DNA from: Phycisphaerae bacterium
GTDB taxonomy: Bacteria > Planctomycetota > Phycisphaerae > Tepidisphaerales > Tepidisphaeraceae
Length of the DNA stretch: 37,764 nt
Direction of reading: 5' to 3'
Assembly: GCA_014379105.1 (NCBI GenBank)
Contig: JACMML010000342.1
Location: 1 to 37,764 of the forward strand
The notes under the pieces were generated by a model, which was not told the DNA's origin, did not search any database, and saw only the letters and a program-made list of their open reading frames with translations. Below, in pieces: positions 4,059-30,296 of this stretch. Every line of letters begins with the position of its first letter. Position 1 is the stretch's first letter. The translations under genes and the position numbers were made by a program.

Positions 4059-4769
4059 TTATTTCTTGTCGGTCTCCCGCCCGATGACTTCGTCGCACAA
4101 TCCGTACGCGACCGCGTCGGGCGCGTCGAAGAAGCGATCACGTTCGCTGTCTTCGCGGACCCGATCCTTGGGTTGCCCGGTGCAGTCGGCGATGATGCCG
4201 ATCAGCGTGTCCTTGGTCTTGATGATTTCTTCGGCCTGGATCTGGATATCCGCGGCCTGCCCGTACACGCCGCCGAACGGCTGGTGGATCATCACCTTGG
4301 CGTGCGGGAGGATGTAGCGCTTGCCCTTGGTGCCGGCCATGAACGCAATCGCCCCGCCGCTCTCGGCCCGGCCGATGCAGTAGGTCGCGACATCGCATTG
4401 CAGGAACTTCATGATGTCGTACATCGCCAGCGTGTCGTCGACGACGCCGCCGGGTGAATTGATGTAGAAGTTGATGTCCTCTGTTTTCTTGATGCTTTGC
4501 AGATAGAGCATCTGCATGATCACGCGCGACGCGGTGACGTGATTGATCTCGCCAACCAGGAAAATCACGCGGTTTTCGAGGAGCATTTCCTCGAGCGTCA
4601 TCTCGCGATAGCGGTTGGTCCCGCCGCCGGATGGTCCCGGCATCGCCATCGGCATCGCCATCGGGGATCGCGGCGGTGTATGGAATTGTGGTCGATCGGA
4701 TTGCTGGGCGGCCGCCAACGCGTACGCCTGGGAAAACAATGGGTCTTGATGGGGGAGTCTGTTCGACAT
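4059..4769 (-). CDS. clpP: ATP-dependent Clp protease proteolytic subunit, second copy with N-terminal extension
   Basis: [55 protein letters not shown]; about 55 residue low-complexity N-terminal extension. Confidence 0.92.
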
Positions 4770-4864
4770 CCATGCCTCTCTTCTGCGAATTACCGTCTGT
4801 GAATTACCCGGGCGATACTACGCCGCATACCGGCGCGGGTCAAACGGTCCAAAGGTGTGATAAC

Positions 4865-5935
4865 TCAGCGAAATCGGCAGACGACATCGTACAGTTTGCC
4901 GTTCAATCTCCTGGCGATCATCGTGTCTTTGATCATCGCCAGATTAACCGCATCGCAGGAGAATGCCGCGTCAAGATTACTCTCAACACCGCGGCCCATG
5001 CCTTCGAGGATGATTAGGTCCGCGTCGCGCGCCGCTTCATTCAATTCTGGAGAGACGCCCGCCAGATCGATCAGCGGCTCGCCGGTGCCGGTGGAGATGA
5101 TCGTTATCGGTAGTGAAGCAATCGAAGGCTCCACCTCAAGCACGCGCGGCCACCATCGGCGAACGTCGTACACGGTCATGTCGTTCAGCGTCGGCCGTTC
5201 ATTGGCCGCCAGGATGATGCTCGTGCCGCGCTGTGCGAGCCAGCGCATCAGCGGAATCGCGCCGAGCAGAAAATCGGCGCCGGCATTGTCGACAAAGAAG
5301 ACGCACTTCCGCCACGCGGCGCGATCAGCGGCAGCGCGGGAGGCGGCGCGGGCGCTGAATTGGTCGAAGTCGTCGATAAGCCACGGCCGCGCCGGCAAGC
5401 GGGCGCGCGTGGTGAAGAAATCGAGCTTGCCATCCAGCAGCAGCGTGGCGCTGCCTGCGGCGCCCATGTCGAAGATGTTGCCGGCAAATACTCCTTCGAT
5501 GACGGCGCGAAACTGGTCGTCGGCATCCAACGCGTCGATCTGGCGGCAAACCGCCGGCAGAAGATGGATGACCTTCTCATTCTCACGGTGCTTGAGGTCT
5601 TCAAACGGATCGGCAAAGCCATGCTTGCGCAGCATTGCGTCCCGCCATTCATCAAGCGTGAGCATCGTCACCCGGCCGCTGCCTTGTGGCTGACGGTCGA
5701 AGCGGTCGTAGGTCTCGATAAACTCGGCGCGGCACGCTTTGACGCGAGCCTCCACCTCCAGCATGTCCTGGCCGCGGACGGTCGCCATCTCAAGCGCGAG
5801 ATCGAGGATCGTTACGACATGCCGCTTAAAGAACTCCACCCAGTATGTGCGCGCTTCGTGATCCACGCGCATGTCCCATCGACACGCCTGATACGTCGCC
5901 GGATCGCGGAGCTTGATGAAGGGCTCGAGCTTCAT
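4865..5935 (-). CDS. DUF89 family protein (damage-control phosphatase ARMT1/PANK4-like)
   Basis: KCVFFVDNAGADFLLGAIPLMRWLAQRGTSIILAANERPTLNDMT and DLIILEGMGRGVESNL resemble the DUF89 metal-dependent phosphatase family. Confidence 0.8.
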   Translation of the reverse strand: MKLEPFIKLRDPATYQACRWDMRVDHEARTYWVEFFKRHVVTILDLALEMATVRGQDMLEVEARVKACRAEFIETYDRFDRQPQGSGRVTMLTLDEWRDAMLRKHGFADPFEDLKHRENEKVIHLLPAVCRQIDALDADDQFRAVIEGVFAGNIFDMGAAGSATLLLDGKLDFFTTRARLPARPWLIDDFDQFSARAASRAAADRAAWRKCVFFVDNAGADFLLGAIPLMRWLAQRGTSIILAANERPTLNDMTVYDVRRWWPRVLEVEPSIASLPITIISTGTGEPLIDLAGVSPELNEAARDADLIILEGMGRGVESNLDAAFSCDAVNLAMIKDTMIARRLNGKLYDVVCRFR

Positions 5936-8630: not shown

Positions 8631-8739
8631 GCCTGGGAAGGATAATCGAAGACTCGAATAATCGCCCGCCTTTGAACGGCTTGCATAACCCCGCCGCGGG
8701 GTTAGATTTCCCTCTGTTCTGCGGCAGCGATTGGGAGAT

Positions 8740-10056
8740 ATGGAAACTCACGTCGGGATCGTTCTTCTGGGCTGCGGCGTTGTCGGCCGAGGCGTGCTTT
8801 CAATCCTGGATCAAGAGCGCGATCTGCTCAAGCAGCGGACTGGCATTCACTTTGACGTGCGCCACGTAGTCTGCCGCGACGTATCAAAGCACGCCGATAT
8901 CGCAGGCGTCTATCAACTGACAACTAACGCCGAAGCCGCCGTGACCGACCCGGGCGTGCAGATCGTCGTCGAACTCATGGGCGGGCTCGAGCCGGCGGGC
9001 GGACTCATCGCCAGGGCACTGAAGGCTGGAAAACACGTCGTCACCGCCAACAAGGCGCTTTTGGCGGTGCGGAGCGCCGAACTATTTAAGCTCGCTAAAA
9101 ATCACCACGTCTCCATCGGCTTCGAGGCCAGTTGCGGCGGCGGCATTCCGATCATCGACGCACTGACGCGCGGGCTTCTGGCCAATCGCATCGACGCGCT
9201 GCTCGGGATCATCAACGGCACGTGCAATTTCATTCTTTCACAGATGTCGCAACACGGCTGGGGATACGAGCAGGCGTTGAAGGAGGCGCAAAAACTCGGC
9301 TTCGCCGAGGCCGACCCGACGATGGACGTCAACGGCCGCGATACCGCGCAGAAGCTGGCAATCCTCGCGTCATTGGCATTTAACGTGGCGGTCGGTGAGC
9401 AGGATATCGCCGTCAGTGGCATCGACACGCTACAGGCGGATGACATCCGCTACGCGGCCGAGCTGGGCTATGCGATCAAGCTGCTGGCGATCGCGGAGCG
9501 CGTCGGCGAATCACTTGCATTGCGCGTCCACCCCACGCTTGTCCACAATGAAGACCTGCTGGCGGATGTCAGCGGCAGCTTCAACGCGATCAGTGTTTTC
9601 GGCCACGCGATCGGCCACCAGTTCTTCTACGGCCGCGGCGCCGGGCAGATGCCCACCGCCAGCGCGGTCGTCGCCGACCTGCTCGGAATCGCGATGGGCG
9701 TCATCCCCCACGCCTTTGAAAGGCTCAACGTCCACACCGATCTTCCTCCGGTCAAGGTGCTGCCGCCGGACCAGCTCGAATCCCGCTATTACCTGCGCGT
9801 CACCACCAGGGACCAGCCCGGCGCCTTCGCCGGCATCACCAGCGCCCTGGGCCGACACGGGATCAGCCTCAAGAGCGTCCACCAGAACGAGACTGACACC
9901 GGCGACAACCCCGTGCCCGTCGTCGTCACCACCCACCGCGCCAAACAAGGCGCAATGACCGCCGCCATCCGCGAGATCGACGCCTTGCCGTCTATTCAGT
10001 CGCCAACGATCTGCATCAGGATCATCGATCAACCGACGGAGTTCGGGCAAGTTTAA
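8740..10056 (+). CDS. hom: Homoserine dehydrogenase with C-terminal ACT domain
   Basis: METHVGIVLLGCGVVGRGVL, ELMGGLEPAGGLIARALKAGKHVVTANKALLA, GIINGTCNFILSQM, AQKLAILASLAF; ACT-like tail YYLRVTTRDQPGAFAGITSALGRHGISLKSV. ATG at 8740 preferred over TTG at 8731. Confidence 0.96.
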   Translation: METHVGIVLLGCGVVGRGVLSILDQERDLLKQRTGIHFDVRHVVCRDVSKHADIAGVYQLTTNAEAAVTDPGVQIVVELMGGLEPAGGLIARALKAGKHVVTANKALLAVRSAELFKLAKNHHVSIGFEASCGGGIPIIDALTRGLLANRIDALLGIINGTCNFILSQMSQHGWGYEQALKEAQKLGFAEADPTMDVNGRDTAQKLAILASLAFNVAVGEQDIAVSGIDTLQADDIRYAAELGYAIKLLAIAERVGESLALRVHPTLVHNEDLLADVSGSFNAISVFGHAIGHQFFYGRGAGQMPTASAVVADLLGIAMGVIPHAFERLNVHTDLPPVKVLPPDQLESRYYLRVTTRDQPGAFAGITSALGRHGISLKSVHQNETDTGDNPVPVVVTTHRAKQGAMTAAIREIDALPSIQSPTICIRIIDQPTEFGQV

Positions 10057-10122
10057 TGATCAGAGCCGGATCAATTGGTTCGCCTCCACCACGCCTTGCG
10101 CCTCGCGATAACCGAGAAGAAT

Positions 10123-10145
10123 CACGTTCACGTTCACGTTCACGC
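10123..10145. repeat. Short tandem repeat of CACGTT (3 full units plus partial)
   Basis: Direct reading: ...atCACGTTCACGTTCACGTTCACGct... Confidence 0.9.
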
Positions 10146-10196
10146 TGAAGCGTTTAGGATCTCGAGCAATATACTTCCTCATATGTCGAATGTTGG

Positions 10197-10202
10197 TATG
10201 AT
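10197..10202 (+). promoter_or_regulatory. Candidate extended -10 element upstream of parA-like gene
   Basis: TGGTATGAT (TGn + TATGAT) about 25 bp upstream of the ATG at 10228, followed by AAGGAG at the expected Shine-Dalgarno position. No convincing -35. Confidence 0.3.
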
Positions 10203-10227
10203 TTCCATTTAGGATAAGGAGTCGAAC

Positions 10228-11115
10228 ATGGCTATCGTAGTTGGCTTCATCAGTGAAAAAGGTGGGGTTGGTAAGACGACCGCATGCTATCATATTGCGG
10301 TCGGGCTGAACTGGCATCATGGCAAACGCGTGCTCGTGGTCGATGCTGACTATCAAAGAGGAGGAATCACTGGCCGATTTCTTCCGGACCTTCTTGAACA
10401 TTTTCGTACTGGCCGGCTTCCTCACACAACCCTATGGGACAAGTTTCAAGAACTATACACCGGCCAGCAGATAACTCCTGCCATTGACATTCTTTCCACA
10501 CAGGAAGGCCCAAAACTTATCCCCGCTGATCCAAGGCTATCGCAGGTTACGGTCGAGAAGATGCCAGCAACAAACAATATTAGGCAAAACAGCATGTCGC
10601 TGTGGCGACACTTATCACTCTTGCGATCAGTTCTTGAGCCGCATTTAGACAATTTTGATTATATCTTGATCGACTCACACCCTGAGATATCAGAGGTCTT
10701 GCGGGCCGTAATATATGCGAGCGATCATTGTGTTTCTCCAGTGAAGCTTGATCTACAATCCACCATTGGTGTTGCTTCGGCAATAGAGGCAATGAATGAC
10801 GTCAATGCTGATGTGGAAATGATGATCCATGCCATAAGTAATCTGCCAGTTCATCAGCCGACACGATTTTCTGGCGCAATGGGAATGATGGCTAGGGAAT
10901 GGGGCGGCATTCTAAAACGCACCGAGCGGACAGAGTACCATCGACTCCGACGCGCGGGAACGATTTTTGACTCTTATGTCACAGAAGGCGATGGATTGCG
11001 TCAAGCTGCCGCCGAAAGAATGCCCGTGTATAATGTGAAAGGCGCAAACGCCGAACGCCAAGCAACTCAGTTTCGTGAGATGACAACGGAGTTCATGACA
11101 CGATGTCAAGCATAG
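10228..11115 (+). CDS. ParA/MinD-family AAA ATPase
   Basis: Deviant Walker A EKGGVGKTT, VLVVDADYQ, DYILIDSHPEISEVLRAVIYASDHCVSPVKLD; upstream GGATAAGGAG ribosome binding site. Confidence 0.93.
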   Translation: MAIVVGFISEKGGVGKTTACYHIAVGLNWHHGKRVLVVDADYQRGGITGRFLPDLLEHFRTGRLPHTTLWDKFQELYTGQQITPAIDILSTQEGPKLIPADPRLSQVTVEKMPATNNIRQNSMSLWRHLSLLRSVLEPHLDNFDYILIDSHPEISEVLRAVIYASDHCVSPVKLDLQSTIGVASAIEAMNDVNADVEMMIHAISNLPVHQPTRFSGAMGMMAREWGGILKRTERTEYHRLRRAGTIFDSYVTEGDGLRQAAAERMPVYNVKGANAERQATQFREMTTEFMTRCQA

Positions 11116-11564
11116 AACAAAACAATGTCGATGTTAGACAGTTGGTTCGCTTTCTAGGAATTGAAGGTGCACGCGCGGGACTTACACAAAGTAAGCGATT
11201 GACTGTGGACATGCTCCGCAAATTAGCTGAGCCGCTCAAACTTAATTTACCCGAGAAAGCAACGCGCCAAGTATTGATCGACGAAATGGTAAAGATTGCA
11301 TCTCGAAGGATTGACAAGCCAATCCATGAGCTATTTGCCATGGGCGAAAACTCGTTATTAGAATACTTCGAGCAAGTCGAAGCAGAGCCAGCGGAGATTC
11401 TGGACATTCTAAAAGAACTTAACGTGTCGCCGCGGAGAGAGGGTCGCAAGACTCTTTTTGAATTTGCAGCAAGAGAGCTAAGTGAAACTGGCCGCTTTAT
11501 ACGAATTGCGGGTAAATCAGAACCCTCTAAGTCAAACTCGGGAAACGCAACGTATCGCCCTTAA
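11103..11564 (+). CDS. Small protein with SAP/HeH-like helical segment, overlapping the parA-like gene
   Basis: Start overlaps the parA-like 3' end by 13 bp; LTVDMLRKLAEPLKLNLPEKATRQVLIDEMV resembles the SAP/HeH pattern of short DNA-binding helical motifs. Confidence 0.7.
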   Translation: MSSIEQNNVDVRQLVRFLGIEGARAGLTQSKRLTVDMLRKLAEPLKLNLPEKATRQVLIDEMVKIASRRIDKPIHELFAMGENSLLEYFEQVEAEPAEILDILKELNVSPRREGRKTLFEFAARELSETGRFIRIAGKSEPSKSNSGNATYRP

Positions 11565-12441
11565 GTCTGTCGCTTTTTCTATCCGCATCCTCCAAACATG
11601 ACGCTATGCAGCGAATGTCGCGCCTCCTAATTGGCTGCGTATCTACCTTATAGCCTGCGCAGTTACGTCGCACAAGCCGAACGGTACCGACGCGCTTCTT
11701 CTCTCACAACCACCGTGTCGTCCTATCAGGCGAATCAAAGCGGACCTAGCTCTTTTAGGTGAACTGTCCGTAGATTCCTCAAATTCTCCGTGCTGAAAGG
11801 GCATGAATTAGTCCGTCAATACCGGCAACTCAGATCGGCTTGCGACAGGGGCCCTTCCCTTTAAGTCTCTTGTGGGCCGAGCGATGGATGCCGTACATGC
11901 ACCATGGCCGGTCAACAATCGGGGAAACGTTCGCAACGAAACTGGGTGCGTGAGCGCCTGCGCAGCGCCGCCACAACCGAAATAGAAAACGTCTACTCAT
12001 TTTTTGCGGTGTTCGAGGAACGTGCGCGCGTTTTTGCGCGCGCTGGCGCAGCGCGGCGGGTGTTTATGGAGGGGACGAAATGCGCGCCGGCTTCCTAGCG
12101 AAGTAACCGCGTTGATTACCTCGCCGAATGTCCATTGGAGAAAGGAAGACATCATGACCCGATCCGAAAAAACGAACCCAAACTCCCGGTCCGACACGCG
12201 CGAAACAAGCGAGGATGATTGCGCGTTAAGCAAGGCGGTCTGCGTGTACTTGGCGCGCGTTGGTTTTCCGGCCAAACAATGGCCGGGCATGAAGTTGCGC
12301 CCAAACGTGAAAATGAAAAGTGACGAAACGAGAAATCGCTGCTTTTTGGAAATGAATTTGCTCGGCGATGGTCGCCATGTATTTGCGGCGGCGATCGATT
12401 ATTCTGACGTGGAGTCGAAGCTGTTGGTTCGCAGGACACGG

Positions 12442-13638
12442 ATGCCCGATATGAAATACGCGATTCTCATCCCCGACGGAGCGGCGGACGATCCGCTTCC
12501 GGAACTGGACAACCGCACGCCGCTGGAAGCGGCGAATACGCCCAATATGGACGAGGTGGCGCGCCTGGGCGTGCTCGGCACGGCGCGGACCGTGCCCGAC
12601 GGCTTTGAGAGCGGCTCGGACGTGGCGACGATGTCGCTGCTCGGATACGACCCCGCGAAATACCATACCGGCCGCGCTCCGCTGGAGGCGGCGGCGCAGA
12701 AGATACCGCTGGCACCCACGGATTGGGTCTTCCGCTGCAATCTCGTGACCGTCATCGACGGCATCATGAAAGACCACTCGGCTGGCGGAATCAGCGACGC
12801 CGATGCGCGGACGATGATTCATGACCTGGAACGGGCGGTGCAGGTGCCGGGGCTGGAGTTTCATACCGGCGTGTCGTACCGGAATCTGCTGGTCTATCGG
12901 GGCTCAGAAAACTTCGAACTCGCGACGCGGCCGCCGCACGAAATCCTCGACGAGATGGTGAGCCGGCACCTGCCTAAGGGCATCGGTTCTGACATGCTTC
13001 AGAGCATCATGCAGCATTCGCAGCGCGTTTTCGCCGGGCATGACGTCAACCGCGTCCGCACCGCGACCGGGCACAATCCCGCCACGCAGGTGTGGCTATG
13101 GGGACAGGGGCATCCGCCGGCGATACCAAAATTCGCGGACCGGTTTGGAGTGAATCATGGGGCCATGATCACCGGCGTCGATCTCTTGCGCGGGCTTGCG
13201 GTATTGCTGGGATGGGATGTGGTGGAGGTGCCCGGCATGACCAGCTTCCACGACACCGATTACGCCGGGCAAGGCCGTGCGACGTGCGCGGCGCTGGACC
13301 GATTTGATATCGTCGTCTCCCACATCGAGTCGCCGGACGAAGCATCGCACCAGGCAGATTGGAAGACCAAGGTGGCGGCGATCGAGGCGATTGATGAGCA
13401 TGTCGTCGGGCCGGTGCTGGATAAGCTTCGGTCCGGGGACCAGTGGCGGCTGCTGGTGTTGCCCGATCATCCCACCAACATCGCCACCCGCCGCCACGGC
13501 TACGCACCGACGCTCTTTGCAATGTGCGGCATAGGGCTGGCTCCCGGAGGCAGCACGGCCTATAGCGAAGCTCAGGCGGTGCGGGGACAAACCATTTCTG
13601 AAGGGCATGAGCTGATGGCGGCGTTTTTAGGAAAGTGA
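12442..13638 (+). CDS. apgM: Cofactor-independent phosphoglycerate mutase family protein (ApgM/COG3635-like; possible ThrB2-type homoserine kinase)
   Basis: MPDMKYAILIPDGAADDPLPELDNRTPLEAANTPNMDEVARLG...GFESGSDVATMSLLGYDPAKYHTGRAPLEAAA. The ORF stays open upstream to 12004; an alternative start with a strong RBS lies at 12154. Confidence 0.9.
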   Translation: MPDMKYAILIPDGAADDPLPELDNRTPLEAANTPNMDEVARLGVLGTARTVPDGFESGSDVATMSLLGYDPAKYHTGRAPLEAAAQKIPLAPTDWVFRCNLVTVIDGIMKDHSAGGISDADARTMIHDLERAVQVPGLEFHTGVSYRNLLVYRGSENFELATRPPHEILDEMVSRHLPKGIGSDMLQSIMQHSQRVFAGHDVNRVRTATGHNPATQVWLWGQGHPPAIPKFADRFGVNHGAMITGVDLLRGLAVLLGWDVVEVPGMTSFHDTDYAGQGRATCAALDRFDIVVSHIESPDEASHQADWKTKVAAIEAIDEHVVGPVLDKLRSGDQWRLLVLPDHPTNIATRRHGYAPTLFAMCGIGLAPGGSTAYSEAQAVRGQTISEGHELMAAFLGK

Positions 13639-13756: not shown

Positions 13757-15757
13757 ATGTTCTCTGTTCGAAGTGCAACCCAAAGATTAATTGAGCCGCT
13801 GGAAACCCGGCGGTTGATGGCGTTTGAGGAATGGGGAGAGGCCGAGCGGCTTATCCGATTTCCCGATGCGCTGGACACGTTCGCGCTCACCCCGCTCACC
13901 GGCGCGGGGCAGACGGTTGCGATCATCGACTCAGGCATCGACTACACGCACAGCTCGCTCGGCGGCGGTTTGGGACCCACGTTTAAAGTGATAGGCGGGC
14001 ATGATTTTGTCGACCACGATGATGATCCACTCGACACCTTCGGCCACGGCACGGAAGTCGCGGGAATCATCGCCGCCGATGAATATATCTCCGATGGGCT
14101 GAAGCATCGCGGCATAGCGCCCGGCGCTAAGTTGTTGGCACTGCGTGTTGACGGCAGCGGACAATCATCCGTGCCGGACGACCGGATCGCCGAAGCGCTA
14201 CAATGGTGCCTCGATCATCGCGTCGAGTTTGGAATCACCATCGTAAACATCTCCTACGGCACCGGGCATTTTGACGAATCGACGGTCAGCAGCATCTATG
14301 GCAATAAAATCCTGGAACTCAATGACGCCGGAGTCAGCATCATCGCGGCGGCCGGAAATGGAGGCGTTGACGACGGTCCGGGCATCGACACCCCCGCCGC
14401 CGACCCGCGTGTGATCAGCGTGGGATCGGTGGATGCATCGGACCGCATCAGCAACTTCAGTGAGCGCGGGCGCATATTGAGTCTGCTCGCGCCCGGCGAG
14501 TTTGTCGCGACGACTCTGCGCGGCGGAGGCTTTGGAAATGTGGATGGCACCAGCTTCGCCGCGCCGTTTGTCGCAGGGACAGTCGCCCTTCTGCGGACCC
14601 GCGATGACACGCTTCGACCGGCGGACGTGCAGTCCATCCTCGCCGCATCAGGAGCTACTAATTTCGACGGAGATAGCGAAGCCGCGCCCGCGACCCGGAT
14701 GACATTTCAACGACTTGATATCTTGGCCGCGCTGCAGTTAACCGAAGCGCGACAGCCGGCGACGCCGGGCGATCAACTACTCTTCGGACGCGGCGGCAAC
14801 AACAACAGCATCGCGATCGACCACTACGGCGTCACTCATCTGATCTACTACGATTCCATCGCCGAAACGCTGCGCTACAGCACGCGCTCGACCGCCGGCA
14901 TCTGGTCGCGGCTGGCAACGATCGATACCGATCGCCCGAAGCAGGGAACGTATGCGTCAGTCGCAGTCGACAAATCCGGACGGCCATCGGTCGCATACTT
15001 CGATGCCACGCACGGCGATTTGCGATACGCCAACTTCAACGGCATACGCTGGTCGACGCAACTGCTGGAAGCCAAGAACTCCACCGGCCTATACGCTTCG
15101 CTGGTCTTTGATCGCAACCAGCGTCCGGTGATCTCCTATTATCGCAAGACCACCGGCGATCTGAAGGTCGCGCGGCAGTTGGACAACGATCAGTGGCAAC
15201 TCACTTCAGTCGACACCGCCGGCGATGTCGGGCGCGATTGTTCGATTTCCATTGATGAACGTGGACGGATTGGCGTCGCCTACGCGGACTCAACGCGCGG
15301 CTACCTGAAGTACGCGCTTTACAACCCGCGCGCCAAGGCGTGGTCGCCGTCGATCGTGGATGACAAGCCGCGCGGTGTCGCGTTTATGTCCGCCGGTTTC
15401 GACAACGCCAATAATCCGATTGTCAGCTACTACGACACCGAGCCGGCAGACTTGAAGATCGCCCGATTTACTGGCCGGCGATGGCGCATCGATCGCGTTG
15501 CATCGCGCGGGGGGACCGGGCTCTATTCCACACCATTTGTTCGCGATGATGATTCTGTAGACCTTTTCTACTACGACAAGCGCGCCAACGGCGTGCGGCT
15601 GGCAAGAGGCGATGTCGGTGCGTGGCAAGTATCTGGCGTGCAAAATGGGGGCGGCCGATTCATGACCGTCGCCGCGGATACGTTCGCGGGAATCTACCGC
15701 TACACCTATTACGATACCGCCGCACGAACGGTGAAGATCGACGAGCGCGAGATCTAA
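13757..15757 (+). CDS. S8 family serine protease (subtilase) with N-terminal LEPRR-like motif and C-terminal repeat (beta-propeller-like) domain
   Basis: Catalytic motifs VAIIDSGIDYTH (D), FGHGTEVAGIIA (H), DGTSFAAPFVAG (S). N-terminus IEPLETRRLMA. C-terminal half has repeats of ~46-50 aa (e.g. SVAVDKSGRPSVAYFDATHGDLRYA). Confidence 0.93.
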   Translation: MFSVRSATQRLIEPLETRRLMAFEEWGEAERLIRFPDALDTFALTPLTGAGQTVAIIDSGIDYTHSSLGGGLGPTFKVIGGHDFVDHDDDPLDTFGHGTEVAGIIAADEYISDGLKHRGIAPGAKLLALRVDGSGQSSVPDDRIAEALQWCLDHRVEFGITIVNISYGTGHFDESTVSSIYGNKILELNDAGVSIIAAAGNGGVDDGPGIDTPAADPRVISVGSVDASDRISNFSERGRILSLLAPGEFVATTLRGGGFGNVDGTSFAAPFVAGTVALLRTRDDTLRPADVQSILAASGATNFDGDSEAAPATRMTFQRLDILAALQLTEARQPATPGDQLLFGRGGNNNSIAIDHYGVTHLIYYDSIAETLRYSTRSTAGIWSRLATIDTDRPKQGTYASVAVDKSGRPSVAYFDATHGDLRYANFNGIRWSTQLLEAKNSTGLYASLVFDRNQRPVISYYRKTTGDLKVARQLDNDQWQLTSVDTAGDVGRDCSISIDERGRIGVAYADSTRGYLKYALYNPRAKAWSPSIVDDKPRGVAFMSAGFDNANNPIVSYYDTEPADLKIARFTGRRWRIDRVASRGGTGLYSTPFVRDDDSVDLFYYDKRANGVRLARGDVGAWQVSGVQNGGGRFMTVAADTFAGIYRYTYYDTAARTVKIDEREI

Positions 15758-29028: not shown

Positions 29029-29316
29029 TTGCCAGACATTGATTTATTCAACTTCTTCCGCTGGGGACTCTTTATCATCGCCTCGATCTACTGTGTCGTG
29101 GTGACCACCCAGAGCATGTGGAGCTGGTACGTGTGGCTCGCCACCAACGACCGCTACATCACAATCCTGCGCAGGTACGTCATCGTCCACGGCCTGCGAC
29201 TGCGATTCAGCACGTTCTGGGGTGATGTGCTTATCTGTGCGCTACTGATGCTCGCATTCACGCTGATGATGTGGGCGCACGCCATTCTCCGTGCGATACA
29301 GTGGGTTAGCGCATGA
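29029..29316 (+). CDS. Small membrane protein (95 aa), unknown function
   Basis: Two hydrophobic segments; ATGA overlap with the next gene; TTG start assumed. Confidence 0.6.
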   Translation: MPDIDLFNFFRWGLFIIASIYCVVVTTQSMWSWYVWLATNDRYITILRRYVIVHGLRLRFSTFWGDVLICALLMLAFTLMMWAHAILRAIQWVSA

Positions 29317-30296
29317 GCGAAGCGGAAGAATCCAATCCACCCCCACAGCAGCTGCCCGCCGTCATCTCGGCGCGTGTTGAACACGCCCGCACGCCGTCGA
29401 ATCAACTCGGCGATCTGCCGCAGGAGGAACTGGAAGCGATCGCCGAGGAATACGGCATCGAGCCCGGGCAGTTCCGCAGTAAAGCGGCGCTGGTCTCGGC
29501 GATACATGAGCGGCGCCAACTGATCGCGACCCTCGCGCGACAATCCATGCAGGAGGTGCTCGACTGGGCCGGACGATCGCTGCCTCCAACGGTTTCACCG
29601 GAGCAAATGGCGATTGAGATCGCCCACATCCGCTCGATGCGTTTCAACGGTCTCTCCGATCGCGGCCTGGTAGTTCTTGCGATGATGCGCGGCTGCGACG
29701 TCGAGGGAGCCGAATCGCGGGACGACATTATTTCAAAGCTGAAATCCCAGGAGGGATTTTTTGCCCGGATCAAACGCAAGACCCGCGGTTGGATGGGGAA
29801 ACGCGTTGAACGAATGGTCGGTGATTCGACGACAGAGATCCCCGCTCCAACACCGGAACCGCACAACAAGAGCACCGATCAGACGGCTGTGCCAAGGCAG
29901 CAGGCGCTGCGCGAAGAGATCGAAGACGCGGGCTTTTTCTCTGGAATCGCCAACCGGGTAAAAAAGCAGGCGGACAGCTACGTCAACCAGAAGCTGGACG
30001 AGATCGAAGCACGCATTGATCGCAAGCTCGATGAGATCGATCGCCGCCTGGCCGAGTGGCGTGATAAGGAGATTGCCAATCGCATTCGTATCCTCAAGAT
30101 CACACTGTGGGCGTCGGTCGTGGTGGCTGCGGTTTCGCTGATATACTCGTATGTGAATGTCGTAAGGGATCAATGGAATCAGCCGAAGAATTTAGCTCCC
30201 TCCACGACGCCTACGTCGATTGTGGTGCCCGCGCGTACTACCAGCGCCACGGCCGCAGCTATCGAAATCCCCACGAGCCGATCATCCGCGAATTGA
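29313..30296 (+). CDS. Hypothetical protein with SAP/Rho-N-like helical segments, coiled coil and a C-terminal TM segment
   Basis: NQLGDLPQEELEAIAEEYGIEPGQFRSKAALVSAIHERRQ, then MRFNGLSDRGLVVLAMMRGCDVEGAESRDDIISKLKSQ, coiled coil KLDEIEARIDRKLDEIDRRLAEW, TM ILKITLWASVVVAAVSLIYSYV. Confidence 0.72.
   Translation: MSEAEESNPPPQQLPAVISARVEHARTPSNQLGDLPQEELEAIAEEYGIEPGQFRSKAALVSAIHERRQLIATLARQSMQEVLDWAGRSLPPTVSPEQMAIEIAHIRSMRFNGLSDRGLVVLAMMRGCDVEGAESRDDIISKLKSQEGFFARIKRKTRGWMGKRVERMVGDSTTEIPAPTPEPHNKSTDQTAVPRQQALREEIEDAGFFSGIANRVKKQADSYVNQKLDEIEARIDRKLDEIDRRLAEWRDKEIANRIRILKITLWASVVVAAVSLIYSYVNVVRDQWNQPKNLAPSTTPTSIVVPARTTSATAAAIEIPTSRSSAN

Follow-up and report, generated by a model that had tools for sequence, protein, structure and literature searches.

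Why does a metabolic locus of a Phycisphaerae bacterium carry a ParA-type ATPase gene, overlapped by a small gene, in a tract of low GC content, and what might such a pair do? We addressed this in a window of 37,764 nucleotides, the whole of the stretch analysed here (contig JACMML010000342.1 of assembly GCA_014379105.1). The features of the locus are as follows, with strand and type of evidence.

8731–10056, + strand: hom (homoserine dehydrogenase), host flank on the left (profile match)
10060–11910, no strand, approximate edges: low-GC foreign tract with both genes (GC profile, GC3, empty hom–apgM junction in relatives)
10122–10146, no strand: CACGTT/TTCACG short tandem repeat upstream of parA (sequence; not common to relatives)
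10228–11115, + strand: 295-aa ParA-type ATPase with a deviant Walker A; motifs SEKGGVGKTT, DADYQRGGI and LIDSHPE (ORF, profile matches, alignment)
11103–11115, + strand: stop/start overlap of 13 nt (ORFs; most relatives have a 4-nt ATGA or a similarly short overlap)
11103–11564, + strand: all-helical small partner of 153 aa, in which residues ~33–66 may form a SAP/HeH/Rho_N-like segment (ORF, alignment, profiles, AF2)
11914–12351, no strand: host dispersed repeat, the right edge of the foreign DNA (three other copies of ~430 bp at 76–84%, and shorter pieces)
12454–13638, + strand: apgM (phosphoglycerate mutase), host flank on the right (profile match, relatives; an in-frame upstream extension falls in the repeat)

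An insert at the hom–apgM junction

Base composition drops from about 0.60 GC to 0.475–0.50 over the insert (1-kb windows), and GC3 is 0.466 in parA and 0.429 in the partner gene, as opposed to 0.683–0.819 in the 18 other coding sequences of the window. In relatives of the same family, hom and apgM are co-oriented neighbours without the pair, with a gap of only ~30–60 bp in G009, G006, G014 and G002. As this gap measures 2.4 kb in the window, it reflects an insertion. The empty junctions and the composition together rule out a vertical housekeeping origin of the pair, and they bear out the preliminary description of this DNA, which had recognised an accessory insert here. Unrelated inserts occupy the same junction in two other relatives, a 1.6-kb secreted-protein-like gene in G010 (L047:2310-3955) and a stretch of ~0.5 kb in G013 (L051:4150-4667); the junction therefore tolerates insertion.

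The extent of the insert had to be revised. It had been drawn up to apgM, whereas only the low-GC tract at ~10060–11910 proved foreign. The adjoining 11914–12351 belongs to a repeat dispersed through the host genome, with copies at 82%, 84% and 76% on contigs C334, C206 and C212, so the foreign part consists of the two genes and short flanks. The repeat is probably non-coding. An in-frame stretch at 12154–12453 was ruled out both as a gene and as the N-terminus of ApgM, as it lies within the repeat and its copies differ by indels; apgM proper starts at 12454. The core of the repeat, near 12218–12351, recurs at at least three further places in the host, and its GC-rich 40-bp motif (12031–12073) is found on several more host contigs. 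Like the preliminary description, we saw no integrase, transposase or parB in the insert, and no terminal repeat, integrase or transposase that accounts for the entry of the foreign tract was found at the site. Elsewhere in the window, 13757–15757 reads as a subtilisin-like protease with an N-terminal LETRRLMA motif, which we take to be typical of Planctomycetes, and 29313–30296 encodes a 327-aa protein with a segment that looks SAP/Rho_N-like by eye (ELEAIAEEYGIEPGQFRSKAALVSAI).

The ATPase and its small partner

The larger gene encodes a ParA-type ATPase, as had been proposed. Profile searches matched it to AAA_31 (E 3e-23) and to ParA-type families, and it has the KGGxGKT motif with the signature lysine and the switch and Walker B aspartates of ParA/MinD deviant Walker A ATPases. 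The motif columns SEKGGxGKTT, D[AT]DYQRGGI and LIDSHPE are conserved in the intact family members; canonical ParA proteins have DxDPQ in place of the second and DxPP in place of the third. Mean column identity is 73% among 11 aligned members, and every member has an invariant cysteine near the C-terminus (window 11094–11112 region), irrespective of how its stop and start codons overlap. Among solved structures Soj, ParA and ParF come closest, and McdA is one of the weak structural relatives; the predicted structure of the protein itself was unusable (pLDDT 41).

The 153-aa ORF overlaps the ParA ORF by 13 nt, exactly as first described, and its product has a mean column identity of 44% among the 11 aligned members. 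The SAP/HeH-like segment suggested for it is at best tentative. The AF2 model (7 sequences, pLDDT 81) is all-helical with seven helices, of which helices 35–45 and 55–66, with an extended loop between them, lie at the proposed place. Pfam Rho_N, a SAP-like fold, matches 4 of the 11 members with a best E of 4.5e-4, under the curated cut-off. HTH_26 is the other recurrent weak match, in two members, and Pfam, NCBIfam, PHROGs and PADLOC-DB gave no family match above cut-off for the partner. A ParABS system would call for a ParB or an RHH-type centromere-binding partner; neither domain was found in the partner with Pfam, NCBIfam or PHROGs, which gave only the weak Rho_N match. A fold search had been suggested as a way to place this protein, and it returned no match at E≤0.001 among PDB or BFVD structures. 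We took the PDB profile matches to cGAS and the oestrogen receptor, as well as a Pfam Diphtheria_C match (E 0.04, below cut-off), as noise. No catalytic effector domain was recognised in either protein, so there is no candidate for a killing or nuclease step.

A linked and mobile gene family

Relatives of the ParA protein with 54–69% identity to the window copy occur across Planctomycetes, Gammaproteobacteria and Betaproteobacteria. Identities of ParA and partner are 63% and 46% in a Planctomycetales MAG (L003), and 69% and 62% in a genome of the same class (G276, locus L008). Gammaproteobacterial MAGs (L004–L007) and a prophage contig from IMG/VR (L015) also carry the pair, as do plasmids of E. 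coli, Salmonella, Shigella, Enterobacter, Yersinia ruckeri and Acidovorax. In PLSDB, the ParA protein (E≤1e-30) and the partner each occur in 34 records, and another family member as query again retrieved 34. The partner lies directly downstream of every ParA relative found in genomes, which strongly supports a conserved pairing. A lack of association elsewhere, named in the preliminary description as evidence against its reading, is thus not what we found. The divergence matrices of the two proteins are closely correlated (r=0.96, Mantel P 1e-4). Between the E. coli and Enterobacter copies, pN is 0.04 for parA and 0.065 for the partner gene at a pS of ~0.71, which indicates strong purifying selection on both genes among these enterobacterial copies. 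Together the two genes make up a distinct family, obligately linked and horizontally mobile, with a fixed gene order, a short overlap and transfer across phyla.

The family is also rare. Among 398 genomes of the class to which the window belongs, two have the ParA protein, and one of 101 relatives has the partner. Sampling the phylum, the G399 class and the G400 order turned up the seed genome alone each time. At most 22 of 5,426 complete E. coli genomes contain the module (20 with most of it), with no chromosomal copies. Scans of viral contigs added the single IMG/VR contig, and none of the isolate phages yielded a member. The suggestion that the window copy is a remnant of an integrated element does not fit its open frames and the conservation of both genes across phyla. 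Two gammaproteobacterial MAGs do have stop codons near the Walker A motif of parA (L006:3964-4848; L007 ~4600-5518) next to an open partner frame, as expected of a dispensable accessory module.

Within the openly accessible literature and PADLOC-DB 2.0, the pair is undescribed. No account of the two genes together was found in that literature, and the main text of the DefensePredictor paper (PMC13092281) mentions neither ‘ParA’ nor ‘AAA_31’. PADLOC-DB 2.0 gave no match to a named system, only a partial PDC-M28B and noise; PDC-M28B is the best match of the ParA protein there (E 1e-7) and looks like generic ATPase similarity.

Genomic contexts

Defence adjacency was sampled at about eight chromosomal or prophage loci. 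In G400, the pair is flanked by an AbiJ_NTD3 protein on one side and by SspE, a hypothetical gene, PbeC, PbeA, SspD, SspC and SspB, a full Ssp/Pbe system, on the other. In G276, HmaC/DUF499, a HEC-09 NYN protein and HmaB are located ~2.5 kb from the pair. The prophage copy (L015) lies in the cargo region at the distal end of a P2-like prophage, where tail/lysis genes give way to host DNA. It comes after genes for a tape measure protein, the baseplate hub GPD, a lysozyme-like protein and a DNA adenine methylase; beyond it are genes for a J-domain protein, for a pair that by eye is RelE-like/antitoxin-like and for a trypsin-like protein, and then host DNA, which includes a transporter. A zeta-toxin-like gene is found near the pair in L006 and a DUF4143 ATPase in L004, whereas the window copy and L003 have housekeeping surroundings.

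Small mobilizable plasmids make up 31 of the 34 plasmid hosts. On ColE1 plasmids of 4.5–5.2 kb the pair is the main cargo and occupies the colicin slot, which in sister ColE1 plasmids contains colicin E1, EcsC with a GTPase, a transporter or unknown genes. By guilt by association, G400, G276, the P2-like prophage and the ColE1 colicin slot thus each place the pair in a defence island or a cargo slot of a mobile element. In Enterobacterales, the pair is followed by a third small gene, which is DUF2158-like and starts MPFNIGDIVYLKSE (L009:1669-1851; also L010 and L012); it was not seen in the Acidovorax or chromosomal copies. One 9.1-kb plasmid (L045, NZ_CP157101.1) resembles a 4.6-kb module plasmid that has formed a tandem dimer, and it has two copies of the pair.

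A possible role in conflict between genetic elements

Our preferred reading, held with moderate confidence, is that the pair is a mobile two-gene cargo module in conflict with other mobile elements, either phages or competing plasmids. Such a role would probably be anti-phage or anti-plasmid. The spread over phyla, plasmids, a prophage and defence islands makes a conflict system more likely than chromosome or plasmid segregation, and obligate pairing, purifying selection, patchy rarity, cargo slots and defence neighbours all point the same way. Against it stand the window copy and L003, which lie amid housekeeping genes, and the derivation of the adjacency from about eight chromosomal or prophage loci. 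PADLOC having no model for the pair, and neither protein a recognised effector domain, also count against it. The defence or conflict system raised as one option in the preliminary description is a candidate favoured by context, by way of guilt by association at these loci and the plasmid colicin slot.

As to mechanism, we more tentatively propose an undescribed anti-phage or anti-plasmid system in which a nucleoid-bound ParA and a SAP/HeH-like adaptor, with no nuclease or toxin domain, misplace or silence incoming DNA. By analogy with the ParA family, ATP-bound dimers would coat the nucleoid through non-specific DNA binding. The partner would act as the ParA adaptor, binding it and stimulating ATP hydrolysis, and its SAP/HeH-like helical repeats may bind a second ligand, which would set the function. 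Most simply, this ligand would be foreign DNA as it enters or replicates, or else a protein on such DNA. The contexts described above make foreign DNA or a phage or plasmid component the likeliest ligand, in which case the pair may tether or displace invading DNA on the nucleoid, and the replication or segregation of the target would be blocked.

It is less likely, in our judgement, that the pair is instead a minimal partition or positioning module of ParA and adaptor, which would stabilise small mobile elements or space them, with the chromosomal copies as integrated leftovers. In type Ib par operons, a small overlapping gene comes after ParA, a layout similar to that of the pair; its plasmid hosts are mostly small and mobilizable, the annotation of the E. 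coli and Enterobacter carriers shows no second par, and Soj, ParA and ParF are its closest solved structures. However, on Acidovorax pAV3334-1 the pair is accompanied by a separate ParA-ParB next to repA, and Y. ruckeri pYRKMM821_1 has a second ParA with a small gene unrelated to the partner. The ColE1 mobilization/replication backbone is present in 365 E. coli genomes (≥80% coverage), some 345 of which (~94%) are without the pair. As the module is found in only 20–22 E. coli genomes, it is not needed for plasmid maintenance. The chromosomal and prophage copies are solitary, with open frames. Finally, no upstream repeats, centromere or operator are common to 12 loci. Centromeres diverge fast; the tandem repeat at 10122–10146 is absent from relatives and therefore probably no conserved centromere. 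These other par genes, pair-free sister plasmids, lone chromosomal copies and the lack of a common cis-array lead us not to favour the minimal partition module that had been put forward as another option.

We regard as quite improbable a McdAB-like positioning of protein cargo, in which ParA would place a complex formed by the partner and the module would be mobile through a niche trait. This would suit the ParA family, the weak structural relationship to McdA and a partner without RHH or ParB domains, but no cargo genes recur between loci and the neighbours differ everywhere. A toxin–antitoxin or addiction pair is highly improbable despite the overlapping genes, the plasmid and prophage carriage and the zeta and RelE-like neighbours, as no toxin fold was found for either protein and the two genomes with a disrupted parA and an open partner would require ParA to be the toxin.

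ParA ATPases are known to move plasmids, chromosomes and protein complexes. If the conflict reading is true, this positioning machinery also serves conflict between genetic elements, in colicin slots, at prophage ends and in defence islands. Close homologues on E. coli and Enterobacter plasmids of 4.5–5 kb make the idea directly testable in E. coli. The same ParA pair is present on the ColE backbone of the colistin-resistance plasmid pSE11-03671 (mcr-5.1; L044, NZ_MK360094.1), so that a stability role, if any, would matter too.

Comparison with known systems

The pair shares with type Ib operons (ParF/ParG, ParA/omega) the order of a ParA-type ATPase and a small overlapping gene. Unlike in those operons, ParA is longer (294–295 aa) and has DxDYQRGG and DSHPE motifs, the partner is not an RHH protein by any profile, no centromere repeats were found in common and the pair is carried alongside other par systems. 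As in the McdA/McdB carboxysome positioning system, a ParA protein is combined with a small non-ParB partner and chromosomal copies exist; in contrast to that system, the pair has no carboxysome or other recurrent cargo and sits in mobile cargo contexts. VirC1/VirC2 likewise joins a ParA-like protein to a small partner on transferable plasmids, but the match to VirC1 is sub-threshold (E 4e-5) and the pair is also found on chromosomes without transfer genes. Although it matches no known defence family and has no recognised effector, the pair resembles the two-gene defence modules that P2-like prophages and ColE1 plasmids carry as cargo, in its position, its mobility, its rarity and its defence-island neighbours.
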